Shown here: one piece after another, positions 22,252 through 27,982 of the stretch
Numbering within the stretch: the first letter of the stretch is position 1
Layout of the letters: every line of letters begins with the position of its first letter
From: Desulfovibrionaceae bacterium
GTDB taxonomy: Bacteria > Desulfobacterota > Desulfovibrionia > Desulfovibrionales > Desulfovibrionaceae
NCBI GenBank assembly: GCA_028689675.1
Contig: JAQVCS010000010.1
Location: 1-64,000, forward strand
Length of the DNA: 64,000 nucleotides
Reading direction: 5' to 3'
Program-made: the position numbers and the translations under genes
Notes under the pieces: model-generated
What the model saw: only the letters and a program-made list of their open reading frames with translations
Told to the model about the DNA's origin: nothing
Database searches by the model: none

Positions 22252-25200
22252 TTAGAACTCGTAACGGAACGTAGCCTGCACGCCATGGTCTGTGGTGTGT
22301 GCGCCAGCCTGTAAGGTGTAATTCACACCTACAGACACGCCATTGTCGTTCTTAGCGCTCAAGCCAAGGCTGCCCTGATAGGAAATAGCATCCATAATGT
22401 TGCTTTCCATCGAGGCAGAGCCATTCACGCCAGCAATCTTGATATCCTGCTTGGCTTCAATGTCGCCAGCGGCGGGAATGATTGCCAAATCAAGCGAAGG
22501 CTTGATTGTCCAGCCGTTCGAGGTTTCGATATCCTTAGAGAAGGTCACGCCCACGGGGAAAGTCCACACGGTGGCGTTCATATCGTCAGCCTTGAAGACC
22601 TTGTGCTTGTCGCTCTTCACATTAAAGCTGTCCATGTGCATATTGGTCATACGCACGCCGATATGAGGCACAATGTCCATGGCATCGGTGGTGATTTTAT
22701 ATTCGCCGCGCAGGCCAGCAGTGATGGTGTCGGTCTTGGCATCAGCCTTCAGCTTTGCCATTTGCATGGCCGAGGGTAAAGACTGCTCCAGCTCGTTGTT
22801 GTTGGCGCTGTAGCCAAAGTCCGCAGTCAGGCCAAAGTTCTGGTACTGGTAACCAGCGTACAAGCCTAAGCCCCAGTAATTGAAGCGGTTGTCCGTGGAA
22901 TTAAAGTCGCCTGTGGATTCAGCATAGCCGCCGCCCACGTTGAACTGTGCACCCACGCGGAACATGTCGTTGAAGGTGTAGTCTGCGCCCAAAGCCACGC
23001 CAGCGGCGTTGGACTTGTAGCCTGTTTCAAAGTCACCAGACTCAAAGCCAAAGCCCTGCTGGTTTTGATAGGTGGGCATAACCCACAAGCCCAAGCCGTT
23101 CTTCATGCCGTCGCCAGCCGAGAGGCCTTCGTGCGCGCTTGTGCCATCGGCATTCAGCGCTACCACAGCGCCCTGCGGCGCAGCAGATAAAGAGTTACGC
23201 AGGCCAGCAATATTGCCCGCCGCATTGGCCAAGTTCAAACCCATTTGCGGGGCTGCACCAGCAAAGGCCATCTTTGCTGCACCTTCGATGGTGGCGGCAC
23301 GTTCTTTCATATTCCCCACATTGCGGGTGGGGTCGACAGCACGGTTAATAAGGCGTTCCCCATAATTGGAAGAATCTTGATTCGTCATGCCCGCTGCCAT
23401 CATGGTATTGACCAAGCCAGCCAAATTCTTGTCCAACTTGGGCAGCACTTTTTGTGCATCTTTTGCGGAAACGCTTACAGAGATCGTCTTATTATCAGTA
23501 CCCCTATTCAAGGTGGCATTGAGCAAAAGGTTGTCTTGCACGCTTAAATTCGTGCCCTGCCAACCTGTTTTTTCTCCTTCAAGCGTGGTGTCAAAACCCT
23601 GTAAAATGGTGTAGTCACCAACGGTTGCCTTGGTCAGATGCAGCTTGGCACTGTCTGCTATAGTGGCTGTTGCACCAGTAACTCCTTCTGCTGTGCTTAA
23701 TGCCGCAGAACCGTTCAGGTTGCCAGCGTTCACTACCAGCAGGGAGTTAGCGGCGAAGGCAGCGGTACTGCCTCCAGAGGCAGATAACACACTAGCTAAC
23801 GCTGTATTATCCTTCGAACCATCAACCATAATCTTAGCGCCGCTAGCCAAGGTCTGCGGAGCATAAATGCCCATAGCAGCGGTAATACCTTTTTCTGTCA
23901 GACTACCAAGAGCAGCAACTTCACCCGCAAGCCATGTTTTATCGGTCGTGCCAATGCTCAGCATGGAATTTTTCCCCACACCGATTTTGCCATCAATCTT
24001 ACTAATATCAGGTGTAGCTGTTATATCATCAGTGAATTGTGCAATAGCAACCTGCGTAGAAGCCTTGTCCCATGCGGGGTCAAGAAGCAAAGAGCCACCG
24101 TTCAAGTTCAAGCTGTTTACTGTCAGACTGGAGCCACCAGTGGTATCTGTGGCATCGCCTACGGTAATAGTGGTGCTGCTGCTGGCGGTCAGCGTATCTG
24201 CCGTAACGGCAGCATTATTTTTCAGACTTGTTGTGCCAGTACCAAGGGAAATATTTTTAGCTGCAACCGTACCAGCATCAGCCGTAACAGTGGTGGCATG
24301 AATTGCAGCAGCCTCAACAGCCCCGCCTTCAGCCTTCACTGCTGCTACGGCAACACCTTCAGCACCAATACCCCCCGTCACCTTCAGCGTGCCGCCAGCA
24401 GAGGCAGTCACTGCGCTTGAGACTATACCTTCGCTGCCAGACGCACCTGTAATTGAAGCAACGGTAAAGTTACCATTTACGGCAGTTAATGCGCCAGCAT
24501 TCCCTAAAGCCACCGTGCCCTTCAGTGTACCACCGCTTTTTGCACCTTCAGCACCAAGCTGCAATGTGCCCTTTTCTATTTTGAGCTCAACTTGATTGTT
24601 CTCATTGCTTGTTTTTACAAGCTCACCTGAACCATCGCCCACCAAGGTCAGCGTTTTATCCCCCTTAACAGTAACATTGGTAGCCGAGCCAAGGTCTATA
24701 TTTTTTACACCAAGGTCATTCTCTCGGCTTGCTTCTGCGCCGCTACCTGTGCCACCAATAACAAGATTTTTATTACCTGTGGTAGCTTCTACTTTTGCTA
24801 AGGTCGCGTCCGACCCTGCATTGTCTGGTAAGTTATCAATACTGGTAGAATTGTCTACGACAGGCTTTCCGCTGGCATCTTGAATAAGATCGCCCAGCAT
24901 TGTTACCTTTTTTCCGCCAGCATTTTTTACCAAAATATTGGCAGACTCTGCATAAGCAAGAGAATAGAGTTTATCGGTTAAGGCTATGCTGCCACCAGCT
25001 ACATCATTTTCTTTAAAAGAAATACCTTCCTTAATTGCACCTGCGGCTTCTGTTTTGCCATCATCAGCAATAGCTGCGGTGAAAGCCTGGCTAGAACCAG
25101 TCTTCAGTATGCCCGTTGCAGAGAGAGCAATTGTTCCATCTTTAGCAAAAGAAAACTCCTTTACATCCAGCGTGCCGCCGCTAACATTCACTGCGCCTTG

Positions 25201-27615
25201 CATATTCCATGCTCTGGCTACATCCAGCGTACCGCCGCTAACATTCACCGTGCCAAGGAAGTCATTCATGCTGGAATTTACCAGCATTGTGCCCTCACCT
25301 GTTTTGGTTAGAGATGCGCTGGCGACACCAGCAATGGAATCAAGATTCTTGTCGGCAGCGTAATCGGCATTTGCCGCGCCAATGGTCAATGTGGCGTCTT
25401 TGGCTATGGCGAAGGTTGCGGAAGAGGCTAAACCTGCACCACTTGCTTCATTATGATCAAGGTACAAAAAACCACCCTGTGCTGTCTGCCCGCTCACTGT
25501 ATTACCAGTAATGTCTGTGTTCTTAGTGTAGGTAAAGCTTAGGGGGGAATCTAAAGCGTAAACAGCCCCGCCATACGCTGAACCAGAAGCCGCATGTGCG
25601 CTGTTATTGGTAAAAGAGACATCGGTTACATCAACAGCCATTTTACCATTTTTCTCATTGGTGCTCGTTGATTCATTACCTGTAAGAGCGTCCCCTTTCA
25701 CATACAATGCACCGCCATAGGAGATAGTGCCTTGAGCACCTGATGCTGTAATTTTATTATTAGAGAATGAAGAATTGTTAAGAGCCAAATTCAAATTGGC
25801 ATCTCCACCCCAGCGCGCACCGCGCACATACAGCGCACCACCAGCGTTCCATTCATTATTGCCAGTAACTGTTGTTTGGTTACCAGAGAATGTTGCATTG
25901 CTGATTGTGCCACCTGTGCCAAAGAGTGACATCCCACTGCCCAATATCGTCGCTGAATTTGTAAACGTGGTATCTTTTATTGTAATACTATCAGCCGTTA
26001 ACGTGCCTACACTTTGATAATAAGATCCGCCTGTCACCTGCCTATCACTACTGGCACTGTTATTTATGAATTTCACATCTTGCAGTGTCGTATCTGCACC
26101 TTGTATACCAACAGCACCACCATAAGCACCATTAGCATCAGTTCCTGTCACTTTGAACGTATTGCTTTCAAAAATTGTATCACTAATAGCAACCTTGCCA
26201 TCGTTTACAGCACGAATAGCAACTATACCAGCAGAATTACCACTTGTCGTTGTTACTGAAATAGTATTATTTTTGAACGTAGAGCCAGAAATTGTTAAAG
26301 AGTCTGTACTAGCAAGGCTTGCAGAGACAATACCAATAAGAGGGTTATTATTGCTTGCAGAAAGGCCATACCCAGTAAAGTTTGCCCCGTCCAATGCTAA
26401 TGCGGTGCTTGTTTTATCAATCGTCGTTATGGAAGAAGCTGTTCCAGCCGTCTTCAGCCCACCGTTTAAGGTCAATACGCCCTGCGAGAAATTTACAAAG
26501 GATTTATCGGCTGTCGTTTCACCTTGTGCAAAGTCAACATTTTTTAAGGTCGTGGTAGAATCTTTATCAATAGTTGATGTGCCAGTGAGCGTCAGCTTAG
26601 ACTTATCAGTAAAGATAATATTGCTGTTTACCATTGTCAGACTTGCTAAGTCATCACTGGTAACATAAAGGCTTTCTGCTGCTTCTGCTGTTGTGCCTAC
26701 AGTGTTTATATCTAATTTATTCCCCGTACCTGCAAGATCAACAAGCCCTGTAATTTTGCTGCCAGTCGTCAGATTTATGCTTGCGCCTGTGGTACCTATA
26801 ACACAAATTGCTTTTGAATTTGAATCAGCAGTAATAGTACCACTATTGGTAAAAATTTTATCATTATAGCCATTAGCGGTCGTATCATTTGTGAGTAATA
26901 CCCCTGTGCCACCACCAGACACATATATTGCACCAGCATTTTTCACATTGCCGTCAGTAAGTGCTTCTTTGCGGTAGAAGATACCAACGCCGCCTTTATT
27001 TTCAATATATATTTTTCCGCTTGTATCATTCAATATCTTTTTATATACGCTTCCAGAGTTATCAACAATGCCGCCACCATTTTTGATAACAATAGTACCC
27101 TTATTGATAGCAGAACCGCTGGGGTCTACCCCCATCGCCTTTGCTTTGTACGCATCTCGTCCATCAACATAAATAGTTCCTGTATTTACTATAAAAGAAT
27201 TAACCGCTGTCGCGTTTGCATCATAATAAATGCCCATGCCTTGAGCATAGCCATTAGTTCCATTTACTTCTCCGCTAAGAACCCAAATTGTACCAGCATT
27301 AGTTAGTGTTGTTTCCTTCGCCGCAATAACAGAGGATGTTTGTGCACCACTAGCCGTTGTTGCCCCACTAATGACCGCTGTTTGCCCCTGTGTAAGGCTA
27401 CTCTGACCTTGATAATCAGATTTCTCTATTTTCTCTACAGTAGGATTACTAGGCGCATCCATCCACTGGCTTTCAGCCATCGCCCCACTCACCCCGCCAG
27501 CCACCAGCATACCCGCCACAGCAAGCGAGCCAAAGGTATTCATCAAAGAACATTTCTTTAATACAGCTGAATAGCGATTAATCAAATTGCCAATTGCACC
27601 CTTAGTCAACATCAT
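22252..27615 (-). CDS. Large type V autotransporter (beta-barrel plus repeat-rich passenger)
   Basis: A 1787-residue secreted surface protein. The first 47 residues form an extended signal peptide (LNRYSAVLKK-type basic part, then GSLAVAGMLVAGGVSGAMA). The passenger, about 48-1500, is Gly/Ser/Thr/Asn-rich and beta-helical in style, with autotransporter repeats near 770-815 (two NVSGGTLDV units after LTKTGEGTMLVN). The C-terminal barrel, about 1505-1787, starts GLGLWVMPTYQ and ends in Tyr-Glu-Phe, the terminal aromatic expected by the BAM machinery. The start at 27615 follows GGAGG by eight bases; an ATG at 27630 overlaps that site. Composition is more AT-rich than its neighbours. The ligand is unknown. 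An inverted-repeat-bounded AT-rich segment lies just upstream. Confidence 0.93.
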   Translation of the reverse strand: MMLTKGAIGNLINRYSAVLKKCSLMNTFGSLAVAGMLVAGGVSGAMAESQWMDAPSNPTVEKIEKSDYQGQSSLTQGQTAVISGATTASGAQTSSVIAAKETTLTNAGTIWVLSGEVNGTNGYAQGMGIYYDANATAVNSFIVNTGTIYVDGRDAYKAKAMGVDPSGSAINKGTIVIKNGGGIVDNSGSVYKKILNDTSGKIYIENKGGVGIFYRKEALTDGNVKNAGAIYVSGGGTGVLLTNDTTANGYNDKIFTNSGTITADSNSKAICVIGTTGASINLTTGSKITGLVDLAGTGNKLDINTVGTTAEAAESLYVTSDDLASLTMVNSNIIFTDKSKLTLTGTSTIDKDSTTTLKNVDFAQGETTADKSFVNFSQGVLTLNGGLKTAGTASSITTIDKTSTALALDGANFTGYGLSASNNNPLIGIVSASLASTDSLTISGSTFKNNTISVTTTSGNSAGIVAIRAVNDGKVAISDTIFESNTFKVTGTDANGAYGGAVGIQGADTTLQDVKFINNSASSDRQVTGGSYYQSVGTLTADSITIKDTTFTNSATILGSGMSLFGTGGTISNATFSGNQTTVTGNNEWNAGGALYVRGARWGGDANLNLALNNSSFSNNKITASGAQGTISYGGALYVKGDALTGNESTSTNEKNGKMAVDVTDVSFTNNSAHAASGSAYGGAVYALDSPLSFTYTKNTDITGNTVSGQTAQGGFLYLDHNEASGAGLASSATFAIAKDATLTIGAANADYAADKNLDSIAGVASASLTKTGEGTMLVNSSMNDFLGTVNVSGGTLDVARAWNMQGAVNVSGGTLDVKEFSFAKDGTIALSATGILKTGSSQAFTAAIADDGKTEAAGAIKEGISFKENDVAGGSIALTDKLYSLAYAESANILVKNAGGKKVTMLGDLIQDASGKPVVDNSTSIDNLPDNAGSDATLAKVEATTGNKNLVIGGTGSGAEASRENDLGVKNIDLGSATNVTVKGDKTLTLVGDGSGELVKTSNENNQVELKIEKGTLQLGAEGAKSGGTLKGTVALGNAGALTAVNGNFTVASITGASGSEGIVSSAVTASAGGTLKVTGGIGAEGVAVAAVKAEGGAVEAAAIHATTVTADAGTVAAKNISLGTGTTSLKNNAAVTADTLTASSSTTITVGDATDTTGGSSLTVNSLNLNGGSLLLDPAWDKASTQVAIAQFTDDITATPDISKIDGKIGVGKNSMLSIGTTDKTWLAGEVAALGSLTEKGITAAMGIYAPQTLASGAKIMVDGSKDNTALASVLSASGGSTAAFAANSLLVVNAGNLNGSAALSTAEGVTGATATIADSAKLHLTKATVGDYTILQGFDTTLEGEKTGWQGTNLSVQDNLLLNATLNRGTDNKTISVSVSAKDAQKVLPKLDKNLAGLVNTMMAAGMTNQDSSNYGERLINRAVDPTRNVGNMKERAATIEGAAKMAFAGAAPQMGLNLANAAGNIAGLRNSLSAAPQGAVVALNADGTSAHEGLSAGDGMKNGLGLWVMPTYQNQQGFGFESGDFETGYKSNAAGVALGADYTFNDMFRVGAQFNVGGGYAESTGDFNSTDNRFNYWGLGLYAGYQYQNFGLTADFGYSANNNELEQSLPSAMQMAKLKADAKTDTITAGLRGEYKITTDAMDIVPHIGVRMTNMHMDSFNVKSDKHKVFKADDMNATVWTFPVGVTFSKDIETSNGWTIKPSLDLAIIPAAGDIEAKQDIKIAGVNGSASMESNIMDAISYQGSLGLSAKNDNGVSVGVNYTLQAGAHTTDHGVQATFRYEF

Positions 27616-27690
27616 ACTCTCAGCCTCCATAGTGTGAACAAAAGGTCTATGTATACTGCAATAGTAAGAAACAATTACAACAGTGATACT

Positions 27691-27982
27691 AACAGTGAGA
27701 CTGTTAGCAATTTAATTTTTTATTTATATAAATTATATAATTACAGGGAAGCTGGGAGTAGATGAGAAAGAGAAAATGAATATCTCGGATGGAGATGCAA
27801 ATATTTTTAACGAGATATAAAAATATACGGTATCAATTTTCTAATTTCTTGATTTAATTATCTTTATAGTTAAGATATCATGTTTTTATGAATATATTTG
27901 CATGTAACTTTTTTAATTTATCTTGAATTATTTGATAGTAAGCGCTAACAATTACAACAGTGATACTAACAGTCTCACTGTT
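27691..27982. repeat. AT-rich segment bounded by 17-bp inverted repeats (possible invertible promoter)
   Basis: Left end AACAGTGAGACTGTTAG (27691-27707) is exactly the reverse complement of right end CTAACAGTCTCACTGTT (27966-27982). Each core is a palindrome AACAGT-N3-ACTGTT whose centre is GAG on the left and CTC on the right. The 27 bp ending in the left half-site (27670-27696, beginning AACAATTACAACAGTG) recur directly at 27947-27973. The interior is very AT-rich and holds TATAAT hexamers on both strands (27732-27737 minus, 27736-27741 plus). It lies 76 bp upstream of the autotransporter start. Confidence 0.6.

Follow-up and report, generated by a model that had tools for sequence, protein, structure and literature searches.

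The window (the whole stretch of 64,000 nucleotides of Desulfovibrionaceae DNA that was analysed) contains on its minus strand a gene for an autotransporter adhesin with an ESPR-type signal peptide and a beta-domain (Table 1). A GGAGG-type ribosome-binding site lies immediately 5' of an ATG-ATG in this gene, and the ORF from the ATG at 27615 encodes 1787 residues. Seventy-six bp separate this ATG from a segment enclosed by 17-bp exact inverted repeats, AACAGTGAGACTGTTAG at 27691-27707 being repeated in inverse orientation at 27966-27982. No exact inverted repeat in the window was longer at spacings of 60-600 bp, the runner-up being 14 bp long and unrelated. Arms of at least 17 bp appeared in one out of 100 shuffles of the whole window, and arms of at least 13 bp in one out of 500 local shuffles. 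The cores of the repeats are AACAGT-N3-ACTGTT palindromes in opposite orientations, with GAG as the centre of one and CTC as the centre of the other. They belong to a 36-bp direct repeat (27670-27705 and 27947-27982; 92% identical), in which the central triplet is the sole difference. The AT content is 77% inside the segment and 47% in the window. A sequence-only reading of the window had described the repeats, the cores, the duplicated block, the AT-rich interior and the 76-bp distance to a 1787-residue surface protein, and all of these were confirmed.

Table 1. Genes, repeats and predicted elements at the locus, and related site pairs in the same genome (C1, C4 and C16 are other contigs)
Feature	Position	Strand	Description
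Target gene	22252..27615	-	1787-aa autotransporter adhesin; ESPR-type signal peptide and beta-domain (PF03797, E 2.4e-32)
27-nt block	27670..27696	+	Second, direct copy at 27947-27973; makes the proximal site's outer flank identical to the distal site's inner flank
Proximal recombination site (predicted)	27691..27707	+	AACAGT-GAG-ACTGTT plus AG; core ACAGTGAGACTGT at 27692-27704; predicted from the inverted partner and the ACAGW-N3-WCTGT family in relatives
Invertible promoter segment (inverton; predicted)	27691..27982		77% AT inside; same geometry at C1, C4, C16 and in 20 other family genomes
Switch promoter (predicted)	27923..27951	+	TTGAAT-N17-TAACAA; 30 nt between the end of the -10 and the distal site's outer edge; directed away from the target gene
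Distal recombination site (predicted)	27966..27982	-	Core at 27969-27981; centre CTC on + = GAG on -
Far-side neighbour of the segment	28439..30151	-	AAA-ATPase_like / PDDEXK_9; not a recombinase
Second pair	C1:7554-7845		Upstream of a second ESPR autotransporter (gene from 7923); same leader as the window gene
Third pair	C4:210-503		At contig start
Fourth pair (looser motif)	C16:about 96636-96923 (L257 3137-3424)		AGA/TCT; 275 bp apart

The sequence-only reading had suggested a search of the genome for other AACAGT-N3-ACTGTT pairs. A motif search of the 2.36-Mb genome identified six such sites, compared with a calculated chance expectation of about 0.14 for 12 specified bases, and all six were in three opposed pairs about 277 bp apart with complementary centres, GAG/CTC in the window and GGT/ACC in both the C1 and the C4 pairs. 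The C1 pair precedes a second ESPR autotransporter gene, in which the ESPR and the 5' leader of the window gene recur. On the gene side of the C4 segment, the sequence (L008, 1-210) resembles, by eye, the end of an IS transposase gene, which separates the segment from its presumed target. On C16, a group-1 glycosyltransferase gene follows at about 150 bp from the fourth pair, which was found with a looser motif. This glycosyltransferase is 54% identical to one in another genome (G069) that also has a segment; a phage-type integrase gene is found upstream.

We then compared these loci with those of relatives. For family genes with the same ESPR, 63 regions were inspected, namely the sequences upstream of the genes and, at one divergent pair, both sides. 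Of these, 22 had an exact inverted repeat of at least 13 bp, vs 0.25 expected from shuffles. The strict motif at 277-bp spacing was absent from the 287 other family genomes, and the family-wide search for pairs therefore needed a looser motif with gaps of 110-170 bp, the centre being ignored. The site common to relatives is ACAGW-N3-WCTGT. Among 288 Desulfovibrionaceae genomes, paired sites of this type flank AT-rich segments in 20 further genomes, while a control pattern gave 0 matches. Outside the family, a phylum-wide sample yielded a single pair, with non-complementary centres, and a scan of viral contigs for the site pair gave no match. Most relatives have GACAGA-N3-ACTGTC arms about 165 bp apart, vs AACAGT-N3-ACTGTT and 277 bp here, a slight difference that was counted against the inverton reading. 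The genes behind the segments, assigned with Pfam or by eye, encode ESPR autotransporters, glycosyltransferases, DegT aminotransferases, polyketide synthases/ketosynthases, SIS-CBS (KdsD-like) isomerases and flagellin. Two loci (L158 and L136; G021) have three sites in place of two, which would permit nested inversions.

Although the centre had played no part in the search, a reverse-complementary pair of triplets was present in all 45 loci examined (44 plus C16; one three-site locus matches only through its third site), and 20 different triplets were used. Since the centres vary from locus to locus yet stay reverse-complementary within a pair, they behave as a recombination overlap rather than as part of an operator.

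A recombinase of the Int/Hin type had also been proposed as a target for searches. A tyrosine recombinase (PF00589) is encoded next to 19 of 41 segments of relatives, and always transcribed toward the segment; a few of these 19 copies are fragments, partial or divergent. Among the tyrosine recombinases of the genome studied here is a homologue (L011; C11:151025-151864), 46-54% identical to the recombinases adjoining segments in relatives. Members of this clade occur in 20 of the 21 genomes with pairs, vs 14 of the 267 others (Fisher p about 1e-20), the clade profile matching 34 genomes at E below 1e-70 (counted from the table of matches). The relatives that bear names in GTDB are Mailhella and Desulfovibrio. 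The candidate catalytic positions R142, K167, H228, R231, H254 and Y263 (A1 numbering) are invariant, also in the copy of this genome. A cognate recombinase can thus be assigned by association, through linkage and co-occurrence in the family. Counting against an inverton, the recombinase of this genome adjoins none of its four segments. More distant homologues, from Stutzerimonas and others (about 40% identity), were not accompanied by matching pairs of sites. A serine invertase was rejected for the window in view of the three-base centre and of the position of the genome's only small serine recombinase, which is encoded beside a relaxase-like ORF.

The recombinase of this genome consists of a 273-aa core ORF preceded, in another frame, by an ORF for an Arm DNA-binding domain. 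The two ORFs (L175, G000:C11, 2520-3670, minus strand) overlap beside T6/A6 tracts, and the frame break may correspond to a frameshift, damage, an assembly error or a programmed shift. The homologue in G001, another species of the same genus, is devoid of an Arm domain, and so are other homologues.

In relatives, an outward promoter (TTGCCA-N17-TATTGA) is found at one end of the segment. In most loci its -10 stops 28-31 nt short of the site's outer edge. At the same position, the loci of the present genome have TTGAAT-N17-TAACAA (window), TTGAAT-N17-TAATTA (C1) and TTGAAT-N17-TATATA (C4). Their -10 hexamers are weak, a point against the inverton reading, and a consensus scan did not list these promoters. 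A weight matrix trained on other family genomes only placed the promoter end on the gene-distal side in the window, C1 and C4 by 17-35 bits (17 in the window). The directional promoter of the window is a prediction, made from a promoter that in relatives keeps its position at one end of the segment and reads outward. The three autotransporter-type loci therefore share one orientation, and this was counted against inversion. Among relatives, the promoter end points away from the target in about 30 loci and faces it in at least six (L137, L147, L149, L153, L158 and L171). Homologous polyketide synthases are preceded by segments in opposite orientations (away in L138, facing in L158), each enzyme being 65-69% identical to a third one (L160). 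At the right end of contig G173:C20 (L168), the other segment end is joined to 23 nt of the contig's own left flank in reverse complement; this is suggestive of both orientations being present in the sample, the alternative being a longer inverted repeat that is genuine.

Inverted repeats thus surround an intergenic segment upstream of the gene to be regulated, and comparative genomics (site pairs, locus-specific complementary centres, a recombinase, and both promoter orientations in relatives) strongly supports the invertible promoter put forward in the sequence-only reading. Judging from these sequence comparisons, we estimate the probability that 27691-27982 is an inverton at about 0.9. A tyrosine recombinase, most likely the product of C11:151025-151864 acting in trans, would bind the two opposed ACAGT-N3-ACTGT sites and carry out strand exchange over a short overlap. 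As this overlap would contain the central triplet, only sites with matching triplets would recombine, and the segment of about 277 bp would flip. The outward promoter would be present at one end only; when this end faces the autotransporter, transcription would cross the site into the leader (ON), and when it faces away, the gene would be OFF. What we infer in this way is the action of this recombinase on the sites, flipping of the segment in this strain, the identity of the expressing orientation and a phase-variation phenotype of the adhesin.

As the predicted promoter end faces away from the autotransporter, the assembly probably shows the OFF state. The sequence-only reading had suggested that TATAAT hexamers could drive the gene, and TATAAT-like hexamers near the proximal end would indeed allow a flipping segment to have been assembled in the ON orientation. 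We find this unlikely, because relatives have no positionally conserved promoter at the proximal end and a consensus promoter at the other, and because the proximal ends of C1 and C4 have no TATAAT; the switch promoter is probably the positionally conserved one listed in Table 1. It is also rather improbable that the segment is a former inverton, now locked because the recombinase has been inactivated or lost. In favour of a locked system, the Arm domain of the sole close homologue in the genome is in another frame, three loci have the same orientation, and the C4 locus has, by eye, IS-like sequence on its gene side. Against this, four pairs with different triplets are perfectly conserved, which decay would have erased; the recombinase retains an intact catalytic domain, and an Arm domain is absent from the G001 homologue and from others; and the uniform orientation concerns three of four loci, the promoter end of C16 not being assignable.

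The other alternative raised from the sequence was a pair of palindromic repressor operators forming a repression loop over a promoter, without inversion. The sites are near-perfect palindromes and their spacing of about 277 bp is plausible for a DNA loop. Operators would, however, have no reason to keep reverse-complementary centres within pairs whose triplets differ between loci, as in 45 out of 45 loci. The occurrence of the palindromes as single sites had been named as an observation that would speak for operators. The strict motif is never single in the genome, and single matches of ACAGW-N3-WCTGT (four) are about as numerous as those of the reversed control pattern (three), which counts against this explanation. 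With, in addition, a recombinase clade that co-occurs with the pairs and adjoins them, and both promoter orientations among relatives, we rejected operators as highly improbable and retained inversion.

The 27-nt direct repeat deserves a separate comment. Its flank identity is 20/20, and this combination of flanks was not seen in the other loci tested. As a consequence of the repeat, flipping of the segment would surround the proximal site with a near-perfect palindrome, and the ON leader would open with a 22-bp hairpin, as seen when the flipped junction was joined in silico. The repeat could be a relic of template switching during the flipped state, but a direct gene conversion from one site to the other would leave an identical product.

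Extending this reading, we think it likely that the loci belong to a family-wide, apparently undescribed phase-variation system, in which a dedicated clade of tyrosine recombinases would flip promoters that lie between ACAGW-N3-WCTGT sites and serve genes for adhesins, polysaccharide enzymes, polyketide synthases and flagellin in Desulfovibrionaceae (Desulfovibrio, Mailhella and relatives). Locus-specific triplets would set the pairing, and other species would switch the same ESPR adhesin genes with an unrelated serine invertase. Nothing relevant on invertons or DNA inversion in Desulfovibrio or Desulfovibrionaceae was found in the open-access literature; while the inverton itself is of a known kind, this family of recombinases and sites has apparently not been reported in Desulfovibrionaceae before. 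These sulfate reducers are common gut and rumen bacteria, for which we found no phase-variation system described, and related gut bacteria have dozens of such putative switches before adhesin, sugar-coat and flagellin genes. If the reading is correct, stochastic switching of adhesins and surface sugars is the work of one recombinase family, whose code can be read from the central triplet. The signature (pairs of ACAGW-N3-WCTGT sites with an outward promoter 30 nt inside) would then allow the putative ON/OFF states of dozens of loci to be read from existing metagenomes.

Comparison with known systems sets these sites apart from those of Hin/Gin-type serine invertases, which have a two-base centre, whereas the window has a three-base centre and the linked enzyme belongs to PF00589. 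In some Desulfovibrionaceae, the same kind of ESPR autotransporter gene is preceded by inverted TGGCGAAAAAGT-NN-ACTTTTTCGCCA sites, which have a two-base centre and 12-bp arms. One locus with such sites (L075, G099:C1:790900-792700) has a small serine recombinase gene (PF00239) directly upstream of the ESPR autotransporter gene. In another (L057, G098:C104:3000-6000), a single serine-type segment inside 53-bp inverted repeats serves two divergent ESPR autotransporter genes, and flipping would swap the gene that is expressed. Among solved structures, the best sequence matches of the recombinase profile were XerC/XerD/XerA (PDB 1a0p, 4a8e and 5hxy) and the integrase 5c6k, but the recombinase is far below the curated Xer cut-offs and separate from the Xer-like proteins of the genome (L009 and L010). 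Mpi is a serine recombinase, whereas the recombinase linked here is of the tyrosine type, and the site sequences differ. What would be shared with the Mpi/Tsr invertible promoters of Bacteroides fragilis, as these are cited in PMC11892184, is that small promoter segments are flipped at many surface loci of one genome, probably by one or few recombinases. The layout resembles that of the E. coli fim switch, which uses the tyrosine recombinases FimB and FimE, and of the gut-bacterial invertons detected by PhaseFinder (Jiang et al. 2019), as cited in PMC11868660 and PMC11892184. Shared features are an AT-rich promoter segment of about 150-300 bp, placed between inverted repeats and before a surface-structure gene, and a tyrosine recombinase. 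The present recombinase belongs to a different clade from the Fim type, scoring 32.4 bits with the NCBIfam tyrosine-type DNA invertase model NF007370 (cut-off 221). It also differs from fim in being encoded elsewhere in the genome, and the centre of the near-palindromic window-type site is 3 nt long and specific to the locus.
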